A stretch of 43,232 bases of DNA, taken from assembly GCA_030647415.1 (NCBI GenBank), contig JAUSKB010000012.1:1-43232 (forward strand), read 5' to 3'. Each line of letters begins with the position of its first letter. Within the stretch, counting starts at the first letter, position 1. The stretch comes from a bacterium. Its GTDB lineage: Bacteria > Patescibacteriota > Minisyncoccia > UBA6257 > GWB1-50-10. The notes beneath the pieces were generated by a model. The model had not been told where the DNA came from, did no database searches, and saw only the letters and a list, made by a program, of their open reading frames with translations. This document shows positions 1,216 to 8,430 of this stretch, piece by piece. The position numbers and the translations under genes are program-made.

Positions 1216-2556
1216 CTAGACAAGCCCCGCCTTCCTCATCGCTTCGGTCATGGCGTCACTGCCGCCATCAGCCAGGGTTTCGGAAGTGACAACCTCCGCG
1301 TCGCGGAAATGCACGTCCGCGACATACCCCTTCACCGCGTTCGGATCGGCGCCGCAGAAGAAATCGGGATCGCCCGAGACTTCCAGAAGATGCGACTGTA
1401 CCCGCCCCCGGCCGCACACGCAGATCGTGTGCTCGTCGAGCTGGTCCTTCGAGAGCGCCGCGACCTTCCGCATGAATTCTTCAATGCGCCCCCGGTTTCC
1501 CGAGAAGGCAAGAATGAGGGATTCTGGAAGGTCTTCTTTCCCCCCGAACTTCTTCGCGCCGGGCTTGTACGCGATTGCGGGCATGTGGTAATCCCGCTGG
1601 TCCACGAACTGCCCGGCAATGTTCTCCGCCCAGCCGATCGGGGCGAAGATGAGCGTGTAGGTGTCGCTCCCGCTCCCCTTGCCGCGCGAAACTGACTCAA
1701 TCTTCTCCACCGGACCAGCATTTTGCCAGTCGATGTAGAAGCTGGGGTAACGTTTTGCGCCGCTTCCGGGCGAGTACTCGTGTACCAGAACCACACAGCG
1801 GTCCGGGCTCGCACTCTCGCCTTCCTTTATCGGCGCGATCACGAGCTCTTCGTGCATGTCTCGCCCAAACCGAACGGTGGTAAGTTCGACGTTCCCTTCT
1901 ACAGGAACGCCGAGCCCATATGCGAGCCGCCCGTTGCTACCCCACACCTCGCGGTGAAGACGGCCACACTCGAGCGTTACGCCCTCTGATACACGATCCC
2001 CGGAGACCTGGAGAATTTGGAAGTTGCCGGGAATCCAGGTGACGTTCTCCTCGGAGCGCGGTGGGTCATTTCGACGATCCCACGCCCGCTTGGACCACGT
2101 CTTGGACTCGATCGCGACGCCGTTCCAGGTGTACACATCAACCTGGTTCTCGTTGCGGCCAGTCTTATGAAACGCGACGGACTGACTGATGTCGAGAATC
2201 GCGGCGACCTCGATGCCAGAGTCACACGCATTCCCCGCCGAGCAAACCTTTAAAACCTTGCCCGTCGTCGCCTCATCGAAAATCGAGACGTCGCCGCGGA
2301 ATCCGCCGGTAGAACCTACGAACAGCAGACAACGAGGGGTGGTGTCCTCTCCGGCGACGATGAGAATCGCGTCTTCTTTGGTCTTCACGACCTTGAAAAT
2401 ATTTTCCGGAAGCACGCCGTCGGCGCTGGGAACCGCTCCGTTCACGCCGATGAACTCGCGGTCGTTTTGATTGTGACCATAGCTCATCGAGGATCGGAAT
2501 GCGGGAAATGGGTCGGTCCCGAAGGACCATCCTTGCGAAAGCATTATGTGTTTCAT
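1216..2556 (-). CDS. Protein of unknown function, paralog of the adjacent upstream gene
   Basis: 446 aa; N-terminal half aligns with 2553..3224 (MKH[IV]MLS..W..G..PFPA[FY]R..., C.LF.G..GGFRG.V.I, CSAGN.C.S.IEV.A.L...QSVAFH..GR..N.V.V.TWNG). Coupled to the upstream gene by an overlapping stop/start. Confidence 0.7.
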   Translation of the reverse strand: MKHIMLSQGWSFGTDPFPAFRSSMSYGHNQNDREFIGVNGAVPSADGVLPENIFKVVKTKEDAILIVAGEDTTPRCLLFVGSTGGFRGDVSIFDEATTGKVLKVCSAGNACDSGIEVAAILDISQSVAFHKTGRNENQVDVYTWNGVAIESKTWSKRAWDRRNDPPRSEENVTWIPGNFQILQVSGDRVSEGVTLECGRLHREVWGSNGRLAYGLGVPVEGNVELTTVRFGRDMHEELVIAPIKEGESASPDRCVVLVHEYSPGSGAKRYPSFYIDWQNAGPVEKIESVSRGKGSGSDTYTLIFAPIGWAENIAGQFVDQRDYHMPAIAYKPGAKKFGGKEDLPESLILAFSGNRGRIEEFMRKVAALSKDQLDEHTICVCGRGRVQSHLLEVSGDPDFFCGADPNAVKGYVADVHFRDAEVVTSETLADGGSDAMTEAMRKAGLV

Positions 2557-3224
2557 AACACCTCCGCATCATCAAGTGATGGAGCCGCGACTGCATTTCG
2601 CGTGTTCCACTCCTCGGTCGAGTAGTGTTTCGTCTCGACCACGGTGCCGTTCCATGTGTGGACGTACACCTCGTTGGTGCGGCGTCCGGACGTGTGGAAT
2701 GCGACCGACTGACCGACTTCCAACACTGCGATAACTTCGATGCTGCTCTCGCAGTTGTTGCCCGCAGAGCACTGCTTCAAGATCGTGCCGGTGGTGCCAC
2801 TTTCAACAATGCCGACACCGCCCCGAAAACCGCCCGCGCATCCGGCGAACAACAAACACTTGTTCGTCTTGTCTTCGCCGGGAACCACGAGGATCGTCCC
2901 TTTCTCCTTCGTTTTAATGACGAGGAACTTCCCCTCGGGGAGCGCGGGCAGGCTAACTTTGAGGTTCGCCCGGTTCCACGACTTTGCTGATTCCTGCTCC
3001 GCGTCATACGCGGCTTTCGCGGCTTCCGCCGCACGCTGCTCCGTTCCTGTATATAGGAGCGCGTTCATATTTCCCGTCACCGTGTAGTACGTCACAGGTG
3101 TGACGCCCTGCACGGGCAGAAATTCTCGGTCGCGCTTGTTGCGACCGTACACAAGGTTGCAGCGGTATGCAGGGAACGGCTCAATCCCGTATTCCCATGC
3201 GCTGGACAACATGACATGCTTCAT
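2553..3224 (-). CDS. Protein of unknown function, paralog of 1216..2556
   Basis: 223-aa ORF with obvious similarity to its neighbour. Confidence 0.7.
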   Translation of the reverse strand: MKHVMLSSAWEYGIEPFPAYRCNLVYGRNKRDREFLPVQGVTPVTYYTVTGNMNALLYTGTEQRAAEAAKAAYDAEQESAKSWNRANLKVSLPALPEGKFLVIKTKEKGTILVVPGEDKTNKCLLFAGCAGGFRGGVGIVESGTTGTILKQCSAGNNCESSIEVIAVLEVGQSVAFHTSGRRTNEVYVHTWNGTVVETKHYSTEEWNTRNAVAAPSLDDAEVL

Positions 3225-4294: not shown

Positions 4295-5404
4295 ATGTCA
4301 ATAAAAACCAGACGCGCCTCGGACGAGGCGTTGGTCTATAATAAACCTATCGTGAAACTGAACATTAGCCGCAAAGCGATTTACTACGGGCTTGGGGGCG
4401 GGCTCGTCGTCGTCCTCGCCGCGGTCGCGTTCAAGCTCTTCACCCCCGCCGCGCCCCCAGTCCAGGTCGCCCCAAACCAGTTCGTAAACGTGTCCGCAAT
4501 CGAGCGGGGCGTCCAGGATTGCGCGACGTACGTCCGCGTGAGCGAAGGAATCGGTCCATCCGCCTACCTCTGCATCAAGGAGAACCGGGACCTTGTGGTC
4601 CGGTGGCAAGACTTCCCCCGTGAAACCGCAACGACTGTCACCATCTACCGTGCCGAGGCGGGGTCGGAGACGCTCGAGGTGTGGCAGACGCTCACGGTGA
4701 CCGGCGCGAGCGGCGAAACGGTGCTTCAGACAAACCTCTCGCCGGATGATATCGGTCCGCTAGCTGGCGGAGGCGGCGGCATCGGCGGCATCACCTTTTA
4801 CATCGAGGCCACCTCCCCCACCGGAACGCTCATATTCGCCTCGGCTCCGCCGGCTGGCGGATCGACCGCCACATCAACGTCGACATCCACACAGCCCACG
4901 GCAACTTCGACCACAACATCCACACCAACATCGACACCCGTCGTGATACCACCACCAATTGTGACACCACCACCCGCACCCATACCAACCTCTACACCCA
5001 CCTCGACGGTGCCAACCACTACCTCAACAGCAACCAGCACGGGCACATCAACGAGCACCCCACCGGGCGTCATCGTATACTACTATTCCCCCTCCGGTGC
5101 AGTAACCGGTCAAGCAACCATCACCGAACCGCAGTCGAACTTCTGGGTCCAGCACGTGAACCAGAAAATTGAGCTCGGGTGGTATAGTTTACCGCCGGAA
5201 ACGACCAAGATGACCGTCTCCCGGTCGGCAACCACAAACGGCCCGTGGCTCGCCCTCCTTACGCAGGGGAACCCGGTCACCACTTACTATCAGCTGTATC
5301 TTGTGGACAGCACTGTGGGAACGACCCACTACTACAAGCTCGAGACGTACAACGGCGAGACGAAGACCGCGACCTACGGTCCGGTGGAGCTCGCGCCGGA
5401 GTAA
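4295..5404 (+). CDS. Membrane-anchored surface protein with Thr/Ser/Pro-rich linker and fibronectin/Ig-like regions (start may be GTG 4351)
   Basis: N-terminal TM segment (AIYYGLGGGLVVVLAAVAFKLF), low-complexity TSTSTPTSTP linker, then a beta-rich C-terminus; hairpin after the stop. Confidence 0.65.
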   Translation: MSIKTRRASDEALVYNKPIVKLNISRKAIYYGLGGGLVVVLAAVAFKLFTPAAPPVQVAPNQFVNVSAIERGVQDCATYVRVSEGIGPSAYLCIKENRDLVVRWQDFPRETATTVTIYRAEAGSETLEVWQTLTVTGASGETVLQTNLSPDDIGPLAGGGGGIGGITFYIEATSPTGTLIFASAPPAGGSTATSTSTSTQPTATSTTTSTPTSTPVVIPPPIVTPPPAPIPTSTPTSTVPTTTSTATSTGTSTSTPPGVIVYYYSPSGAVTGQATITEPQSNFWVQHVNQKIELGWYSLPPETTKMTVSRSATTNGPWLALLTQGNPVTTYYQLYLVDSTVGTTHYYKLETYNGETKTATYGPVELAPE

Positions 5405-5424
5405 AGCGTTTAAACAATGAAAAA

Positions 5425-5445
5425 GACCACCGATTTTTGGTGGTC
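5425..5445 (+). terminator. Terminator of the 4295..5404 gene
   Basis: GACCACCgatttttGGTGGTC hairpin shortly after the stop codon. Confidence 0.5.
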
Positions 5446-5457
5446 AATCCGCGCCGA

Positions 5458-5838
5458 GACTATAAAAAGTTTCCCCCGACGCGTGTTGGTCGGGGGCACA
5501 CTCTGTTAGAGGGACAGACTTTCGCGATGGTTGGGATCGCTAGCTGTTTCATCCGGATGAAACAGCAATCCTCCCTAATGGCCCCGAATCGGAGCCAGAC
5601 TTCTACATGGGGCGGCGAAGTCAACCGATCTGGATTTCATCTATTCAGGCCCAACACCCGAACGACTGCGTAAGCGCCAGAATCTCCCAAAATGACGAGT
5701 ATCATAGGCTCGTCTCCCCCACCCGATTCGCATGGACGCGCATTGGCATGCCGGTGCGTCCGCTAGGCCGATTCAGAAGCTCTCTTACCGCAAGCTTCCA
5801 GAGGCCGGGGGTGGTTCGGTCATCTCTGCAATGATCTA
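5458..5838 (-). ncRNA. Candidate orphan structured ncRNA (~375 nt)
   Basis: Minus strand has a promoter (TTGACT 5871-5866, 16-bp spacer, TACAAT 5849-5844) and ends at a CCCCCGAC/GTCGGGGG hairpin followed by AAACTTTTT. At least six internal stems are visible, including a perfect 24-bp palindrome GCTGTTTCATCCGGATGAAACAGC (5543-5566). No convincing ORF. Confidence 0.55.
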
Positions 5839-5843
5839 GTGGT

Positions 5844-5871
5844 ATTGTAGCATACTGTAGAAAAAAGTCAA
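5844..5871 (-). promoter_or_regulatory. Promoter of the candidate ncRNA, divergent from recG
   Basis: TTGACT-N16-TACAAT on the minus strand. Confidence 0.6.
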
Positions 5872-5897
5872 TAGTAGAAAAAGCACCATAAATACTG

Positions 5898-5903
5898 TAT
5901 AAT
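5898..5903 (+). promoter_or_regulatory. -10 box of recG; probable leaderless or near-leaderless start
   Basis: TATAAT 9 nt before the recG ATG at 5912. Confidence 0.45.
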
Positions 5904-5911
5904 ATGGCGCA

Positions 5912-8182
5912 ATGCCCTCCCTCGCGACGAAGCTCACCGAGGTCCACGGGGTACCGCCGCGATTCATCCCGAAGCTGAAACGCCTCGGTCTCGAGACCGT
6001 CCGCGACCTCCTGTGGCACTTCCCCGTCCGGTATGAGGACTTCTCGAAGGTGTACCCCATCGCGGACCTCATCCCGAACCAGGAGGCGACGGTGACGGCG
6101 CGGGTCACGAAAATAATGGGACGGCGCACCTGGCACCGCACCTTCCACATGGTGGAAGCGACGCTCGCGGACGACACCGGCGAGATCCGCGCGACCTGGT
6201 TCAATCAGCCTTACATTCAGAATGTGCTCCAACTAGGCCGCCTAGCAAACTTCTCCGGCAAGGTGACGGTCTCAAAAAAGACCGGCGACATCTACCTCTC
6301 GAATCCGACATATGAATTACTAACAACCGACAACCTACAACAAACAACGAAACACACCGCGAGAATCGTCCCGATTTACCGAGAAACAAAGGGGCTTACC
6401 TCGAAGGGCATCCGCTATCTCATGGAGCCCATCCTGCGAAACCTGCCCGCCGTTCCCGACATCCTGCCGCCCGAAACGCTCCGAAAACACCTACTCCCGG
6501 ACATCCACACAGCCCTCCGCACCGTCCACTTCCCCGACACGCTCGACGAGGCGCTCGCCGCAAAACGACGCTTCGCCTTCGAGGATCTCTTCCTCCTCCA
6601 GCTTGTGAACCTGCGCGCCCGCGCGGCGCGAGGCGGCGAACGCGCCGTCGCCATTCCACCGGAGCCGGAGCGAATGAAAACTCGGCTCGCTACCCTCCCC
6701 TTCACACTCACCGCCTCACAGAAGCGGTCGCTCTGGGAGATACTGCAGGACCTCGAATGCCCGCACCCCATGAATCGGCTTCTCCAAGGGGACGTGGGAT
6801 CCGGGAAGACCATCGTCGTGGGGCTCGCCGCCATCCACGCGGCAGAGAGCGGCGTGCAGGTAGCCATCATGGCACCGACGGAGCTCCTCGCCCGCCAGCA
6901 CTATCGGACGCTCACCAAGGTATTCCACGGATTCGAGTTGGGCATCGCCCTCCGGACCGCGAGCGAGTCCCGCGCCTGGTACGGCCACGGCATGGAGTCC
7001 GAGCCCGCGAAGGCGGCGCTCCACCGCGACATCGCGCGGGGCTCCATCGCCATCGTCATCGGGACGCAGGCACTGATAACCAACAACAAACAACAAACAA
7101 CAAACAACGGGAAGCAGGGACAAACGACAAACGGACAAATTCAGTTCAAGAACCTCGGGCTCGTCATTGTGGACGAACAGCACCGGTTCGGGGTGGAGCA
7201 GCGGGCAGCGTTGCTCATCAATAACAAACAACAAACGATAAATGGTTCGACAGGCTCACCATCCCGAGCGCAGTCGAGGGACGACAAACAAATACCGCAT
7301 TTCTTGAGCATGTCCGCAACACCCATTCCCCGCACCCTCTCGCTCACTATCTTCGGCGACCTCGACGTCTCGCTCATCACCGAGCTCCCGAAGGACCGGA
7401 AGCCCATCGTCACGAAGGCGGTGGGGGTCGCGGAGCGTTCAGATATGTACGCGTTTATGAAACGGGAAATCGCGGCTGGGCGGCAGGCATTCGTCGTCTG
7501 TCCGCGCATTGACCCACCCGGCGAGGACCCCGAACCGCTCACCTGGGAGGAGCGGGTGAAACTCGAGGTGAAGTCGGCGACCGCGGAGTATGAGAAGCTC
7601 AAAACGAAGGTGTTCCCGAAACTCGCAATCGGCATGCTCCACGGCCGATTGAAAGCGGCGGAGAAGGAGCGGGTGATGTCCGCCTTCGCATCTCCGCTAT
7701 CGCTACGAGCTTCGGCGGACAAGCGAATTGATATTCTTGTCACGACATCGGTGGTCGAAGTGGGCGTCGACGTGCCGAACGCCACCGTCATGTTGATCGA
7801 GGGGGCGGAGCGGTTCGGCCTCGCCCAGCTCTACCAGTTCCGCGGGCGGGTGGGGCGTGGCGAGCACCAGTCCTACTGTTTTCTCGTCTCCGACTCGACG
7901 TCTTCCATAGCCCGCGCGCGCCTCAAGGCCGTCGTCACGGCGAAAAACGGCTTCGAGCTCGCCGAGCACGATTTGAAGCTCCGCGGTCCCGGCGAGTTCC
8001 TTGGGTCCGGCCAGTCCGGCTTCCCCGACCTTGCCATGCAGGCAATTCAGAACCCCGACCTCGTAAAGGCGGCGCGGGAGGCGGCGCAGAGTGTCCTACG
8101 GGATGGGATGGCGCCCCCCTCCCGGTACGGCGCGCTCCGGGAACGCCTCGTGGAGTTTGAGCGGAAGGTGCACTGGGAGTGA
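5912..8182 (+). CDS. recG: ATP-dependent DNA helicase RecG
   Basis: GDVGSGKTIV, APTELLARQH, DEQHRFGVEQR, MSATPIPRTL, QFRGRVGRGEHQSYC, GPGEFLGSGQSG motifs. Confidence 0.97.
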   Translation: MPSLATKLTEVHGVPPRFIPKLKRLGLETVRDLLWHFPVRYEDFSKVYPIADLIPNQEATVTARVTKIMGRRTWHRTFHMVEATLADDTGEIRATWFNQPYIQNVLQLGRLANFSGKVTVSKKTGDIYLSNPTYELLTTDNLQQTTKHTARIVPIYRETKGLTSKGIRYLMEPILRNLPAVPDILPPETLRKHLLPDIHTALRTVHFPDTLDEALAAKRRFAFEDLFLLQLVNLRARAARGGERAVAIPPEPERMKTRLATLPFTLTASQKRSLWEILQDLECPHPMNRLLQGDVGSGKTIVVGLAAIHAAESGVQVAIMAPTELLARQHYRTLTKVFHGFELGIALRTASESRAWYGHGMESEPAKAALHRDIARGSIAIVIGTQALITNNKQQTTNNGKQGQTTNGQIQFKNLGLVIVDEQHRFGVEQRAALLINNKQQTINGSTGSPSRAQSRDDKQIPHFLSMSATPIPRTLSLTIFGDLDVSLITELPKDRKPIVTKAVGVAERSDMYAFMKREIAAGRQAFVVCPRIDPPGEDPEPLTWEERVKLEVKSATAEYEKLKTKVFPKLAIGMLHGRLKAAEKERVMSAFASPLSLRASADKRIDILVTTSVVEVGVDVPNATVMLIEGAERFGLAQLYQFRGRVGRGEHQSYCFLVSDSTSSIARARLKAVVTAKNGFELAEHDLKLRGPGEFLGSGQSGFPDLAMQAIQNPDLVKAAREAAQSVLRDGMAPPSRYGALRERLVEFERKVHWE

Positions 8183-8228: not shown

Positions 8229-8430
8229 TATAAGTTTGTTAGTTGGTAAGTTCGTAAGTTACATATCGCACACGTCCACAGAAATTCCATTACCTCACAA
8301 TCGTGAGGTAATGGAATTTTTACTCGATGCAGGGATTGAGAAAAATCGGAAGTTATCGTATAGGACGGCCGTCCTATACGAGAAAACTTAGTATTTTGTA
8401 CCTCTTTTTTTCTTTTTTCTTCCCGTTCCC

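Follow-up and report, generated by a model that had tools for sequence, protein, structure and literature searches.

A unit of about 370 nucleotides next to the DNA-repair gene recG, predicted to be transcribed away from it, has its own promoter and intrinsic terminator and shows no protein-coding signal. The preferred reading is an orphan small RNA of ordinary kind and recent origin, or else a small gene that has worn out, rather than a new class of structured RNA. The window analyzed, 43,232 nucleotides in length, is contig C38 of a genome of 0.96 Mb (59% G+C, 38 contigs, 99.65% complete). Judging by its size, gene content and divergence, it probably belongs to a bacterium of the candidate phyla radiation (Patescibacteria-like). 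This genome alone represents its genus; the family is covered by 43 genomes (42 others) and the order by 246 (245 others). The unit occupies a 507-nt gap between a forward-strand gene at 4295-5404, encoding a 369-residue protein with no Pfam match, and its divergent neighbor recG (5912-8182, forward strand), identified by the Pfam domains RecG_wedge, DEAD, Helicase_C and RecG_dom3_C. Many relatives have a gene of similar size to that at 4295-5404, on the same strand, ending directly before recG. Elsewhere in the window, two adjacent minus-strand genes (1216-3224) with similar starts, MKHIMLSQGWSFGTDPFPAFR and MKHVMLSSAWEYGIEPFPAYR, match nothing in Pfam or PADLOC, and are candidate tandem paralogs beside a transposase of the IS30 type (213-1070) that carries an rve domain.

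The minus strand carries the TTGACT-N16-TACAAT of the earlier note, at 5871-5844; this sigma-70-type promoter also has a TG ahead of its -10 element, and the predicted start lies near 5837. The final hairpin with its run of U's was likewise found, at 5496-5473, where a G+C-rich stem of the form CCCCCGAC-N8-GTCGGGGG is followed by AAACTTTTTA. Together with the non-coding frames between them, these elements delimit a predicted non-coding transcript of about 370 nt (5464-5837, minus strand). A second intrinsic terminator on the same strand, GACCACC/GGTGGTC followed by TTTTT (5425-5445), separates the unit from the 3' terminus of the gene at 4295-5404. A scan of 399 kb of the same genome for promoters scoring at least 10/12, paired at a spacing of 100-500 nt with terminators of at least seven G-C pairs, returned five promoter-to-strong-terminator pairs, against 0.25 in dinucleotide shuffles. 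The promoter-terminator unit as such is beyond chance, transcription of an RNA of about 370 nt is therefore plausible, and the claim of a stand-alone minus-strand unit holds. From these signals we infer that the unit is transcribed; any function is speculative.

A promoter-like site for recG, TAGAAA-N17-TATAAT (5875-5903, forward strand), stands back to back with the minus-strand promoter, the two -35 boxes being 3 nt apart. Only 8 nt separate the end of its -10 element from the ATG of recG, so that the message would be leaderless. TATAAT-like -10 elements this close to the start codon of recG, at distances of about 8-20 nt, occur in the window (5875-5911) and in four loci from relatives (L064, L069, L072 and L080), a pattern that suggests leaderless recG transcripts here and in several relatives.

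In none of its six frames does the unit have a codon score above about 0, compared with about +0.3 for recG, and a Pfam search of its frames, with X at stops, found no match. The view that it contains no credible open reading frame is borne out, save for a possible peptide of less than about 25 residues. A 22-residue frame on the minus strand, MILVILGDSGAYAVVRVLGLNR, has an SD-like GGGGGAG 7-8 nt upstream, and two consecutive ATGA stop/start overlaps join it to a 15-residue frame before and a 21-residue frame after. The transcript might be a messenger for this very short peptide, possibly coupled to its two neighbors, as the overlaps and the SD-like sequence would suggest; with no codon bias and no relatives, and with ATGA overlaps not rare by chance, we consider that improbable.

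The unit had been thought to belong to no familiar RNA class, and an Rfam search agrees: nothing reached the gathering threshold, and from 5300 to 6000 even a limit of E = 10 admitted only two meaningless sub-threshold fragments. A tmRNA (RF00023) is similar in length; the unit lacks tRNA-like ends, and neither the tRNA-like domain, nor a tag reading frame, nor a covariance-model match was found. ARAGORN reports no tmRNA in the window, and the genuine gene, scoring 70 bits, above the cut-off, is on contig C19. Class A RNase P RNA (RF00010) was considered on account of the loop of the unit's first hairpin, GCGGUAAGA, that has 11 nt (UGCGGUAAGAG) in common with conserved region II of that RNA. 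Both are G+C-rich and alike in length, and the GCGGUAAGAG hairpin loop resembles conserved region II, but the unit lacks CR-I and CR-V (AGUCCGG / ACAGAAUCCGGCUU), and with them the P4 core, and has no covariance-model match. A complete RNase P RNA gene is present on contig C8 (10523-10906, minus strand), and the 11-nt match is therefore a curiosity. In that gene, CR-I reads AGUCCGGA / GAGGAAAGUCCGGACACUC and CR-V reads ACAGAAUCCGGCUU / GACAGAAUCCGGCUUAC. It is complete by eye, but a long insertion that follows CR-I lowers its score to 35 bits against an Rfam cut-off of 100, and annotation pipelines would overlook it.

Signal recognition particle RNA was rejected as well. Models RF00169 and RF01854 have no match in the window, the unit has no apical domain IV motif, and a core RNA common to the family should turn up in more genomes than the single one that has this unit. 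The small bacterial model, RF00169, found no match at E <= 0.01 in any of the 43 family genomes, nor did the large SRP RNA model find one in this genome; the SRP RNA of the family may be very divergent or lost. A literature search found nothing on non-coding RNAs of this bacterial group.

The stems listed in the earlier note are all in the sequence, and nearly all recur in the predicted fold. The 5' domain (5693-5820, minus strand) comprises a CCACCC/GGGUGG closing stem enclosing arms GGCC/GGCC-GAAGCUU/GAGCUUC and GGACGC/GCGUCC, and then a GACGAG/CUCGUC hairpin. The characterization of the unit as a structured RNA, in contrast, is not supported. The predicted transcript has a minimum free energy of -142 kcal/mol (z = -1.8), and six of 100 shuffles fold equally well or better; without the terminator, z is -0.85. 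Over 40 randomly placed 340-nt windows of the contig, z averages -1.1, with a standard deviation of 2.7, so the stability of the fold does not exceed that of the genomic background; nor was any homolog found on which to measure covariation. RNase P RNA and tmRNA from the same genome give z = -6.6 and z = -2.45, respectively. The 99-nt 5' domain reaches z = -1.65, a value matched by 12.7% of random 99-nt windows of the genome, and the middle part (5693-5600), at z = +1.2, is less stable than its shuffles. Hairpins spotted by eye in G+C-rich DNA are a weak sign of structure.

The "rod" of the earlier description has at its core a 24-nt perfect palindrome, GCTGTTTCATCCGGATGAAACAGC (5542-5565), the best element of the predicted fold. 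Seventeen spacer-less palindromes of 24-50 nt, mostly intergenic, occur in 408 kb of this genome (overlapping stretches counted twice), where base-pairing probability alone would predict a few hundredths. The rod is therefore a genome-wide feature and not a hallmark of this RNA. Other examples are found in the window at 8355-8380 and in loci L100 (5853), L107 (18542) and L114 (10203); the cores CCCCGCCATGGCGGGG, GGACGGCCGTCC and CACATTCTGCAGAATGTG recur, and palindromes appear in loci of relatives too. Perfect inverted repeats 3' of stop codons are general among bacteria (PMC13155455).

Conservation, which the earlier note had proposed to check by blastn, and whose absence, together with that of a transcript, it had named as a refutation of its reading, was not found. 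The 391-nt unit matched only itself among the 43 family genomes, and is single-copy in its own; among the 246 order genomes there was no credible match, the best being 24-42 nt long at E of about 0.002-0.01, taken as chance. A single-sequence covariance model of the 5' domain, run on the same 246 genomes, recovered only the domain itself. Phages and plasmids yielded no homolog, exact patterns searched in viral contigs revealed no relative of the unit, and a search with recG against genome contigs found no close relative. A positive control with the genome's own RNase P RNA, by the same kind of blastn search, hit 30 of 30 relatives at E <= 1e-3. The unit, lacking relatives where the control succeeds, is therefore not a conserved core RNA; this distribution points to a unit that arose recently, came in by horizontal transfer from a source not yet sampled, or is under no constraint. 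Base-pairing targets sought in 0.4 Mb of the same genome amounted to chance-level matches of 12-18 nt.

The same genome contains a second orphan unit, on contig C19 (18329-18682, forward strand; locus L096), with a perfect TTGACA-N17-TATAAT promoter, a length of about 350 nt and a strong terminator. It has no reading frame longer than 43 residues, an AAAGGAG followed by a three-codon frame (ATG TTC TGG TAG), no Rfam match above cut-off and no homolog in the 246 order genomes. With a folding z of -6.1, it is by stability a better structured-RNA candidate than the unit beside recG.

Translations read by eye show the slot before recG to be often closed in relatives and otherwise to hold divergent units of varied content: small proteins in L067, L081 and L083, tRNA genes in L064, L072 and L084. 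Such small-gene units (for example L067 and L081) share with the unit studied here their slot, orientation, sigma-70-like promoter and terminator, but read as protein genes, where ours does not. In a third kind of locus, L063 (genome G039), promoter and terminator enclose a remnant, broken by a frameshift, that resembles the beginning of a phosphatase of the HAD type (IIFDFDGTLT). The unit may accordingly be what is left of a small accessory gene, its promoter and terminator intact, its reading frame destroyed, and its transcript without function. That relatives refill this slot with promoter-gene-terminator units of changing content is in keeping with such decay, as is a coding unit of similar kind within the window, at 14724-14421 on the minus strand, where a perfect promoter and a terminator bracket a gene for a 66-residue protein (MEKSRRQIEGMSAFAFIAHAIDSGEALRMF). 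Yet no frame retains any codon bias, none matches Pfam, tblastn of one frame against plasmids found no match, and the loci of relatives give only chance-level matches. We consider a decayed gene unlikely on balance; it nevertheless ranks close behind a small RNA, since relatives visibly exchange one small gene for another at this site, and one of these genes is broken.

A lineage-specific orphan small RNA, a stand-alone intergenic unit of about 370 nt without a protein in a variable slot before recG, has in our estimation an even chance of being the correct reading. Like stand-alone intergenic small RNAs in general, the unit has its own promoter, an intrinsic terminator, no open reading frame, no consistent neighbor and poor conservation; unlike them, it is rather long, is predicted only, and has no target found. 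Against a small RNA stand the lack of conservation, hence of any sign of selection on the RNA, and a fold not above background. A new ribozyme-like or scaffold-like RNA of defined architecture, confined so far to one species, would account for the nested multi-helix 5' domain, its GCGGUAAGA loop and the missing Rfam match, but fold energy at background level, a covariance model without a homolog and the presence of the true RNase P RNA elsewhere make it very unlikely. Slightly less likely still is an RNA whose multi-helix 5' domain and T-loop-like hairpin form a defined tertiary architecture confined to an unsampled genus, which would for that reason be invisible to comparative searches.

Were the unit a small RNA, RNA polymerase would start near 5837 at the near-consensus promoter, back to back with that of recG, and stop at the 5496-5473 hairpin, with the second terminator shielding the convergent gene at 4295-5404. 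The hairpins of the RNA would be ordinary and G+C-rich, and any action it has would most likely go through the unpaired middle part, by pairing with other RNA or DNA bases or by binding protein; alternatively, the effect could be mere competition between the two overlapping promoters. In this family, the stretch ahead of recG is a slot where small transcription units vary, and this one, if transcribed and functional, would be a regulatory RNA standing on its own in the small genome of an uncultivated bacterium.
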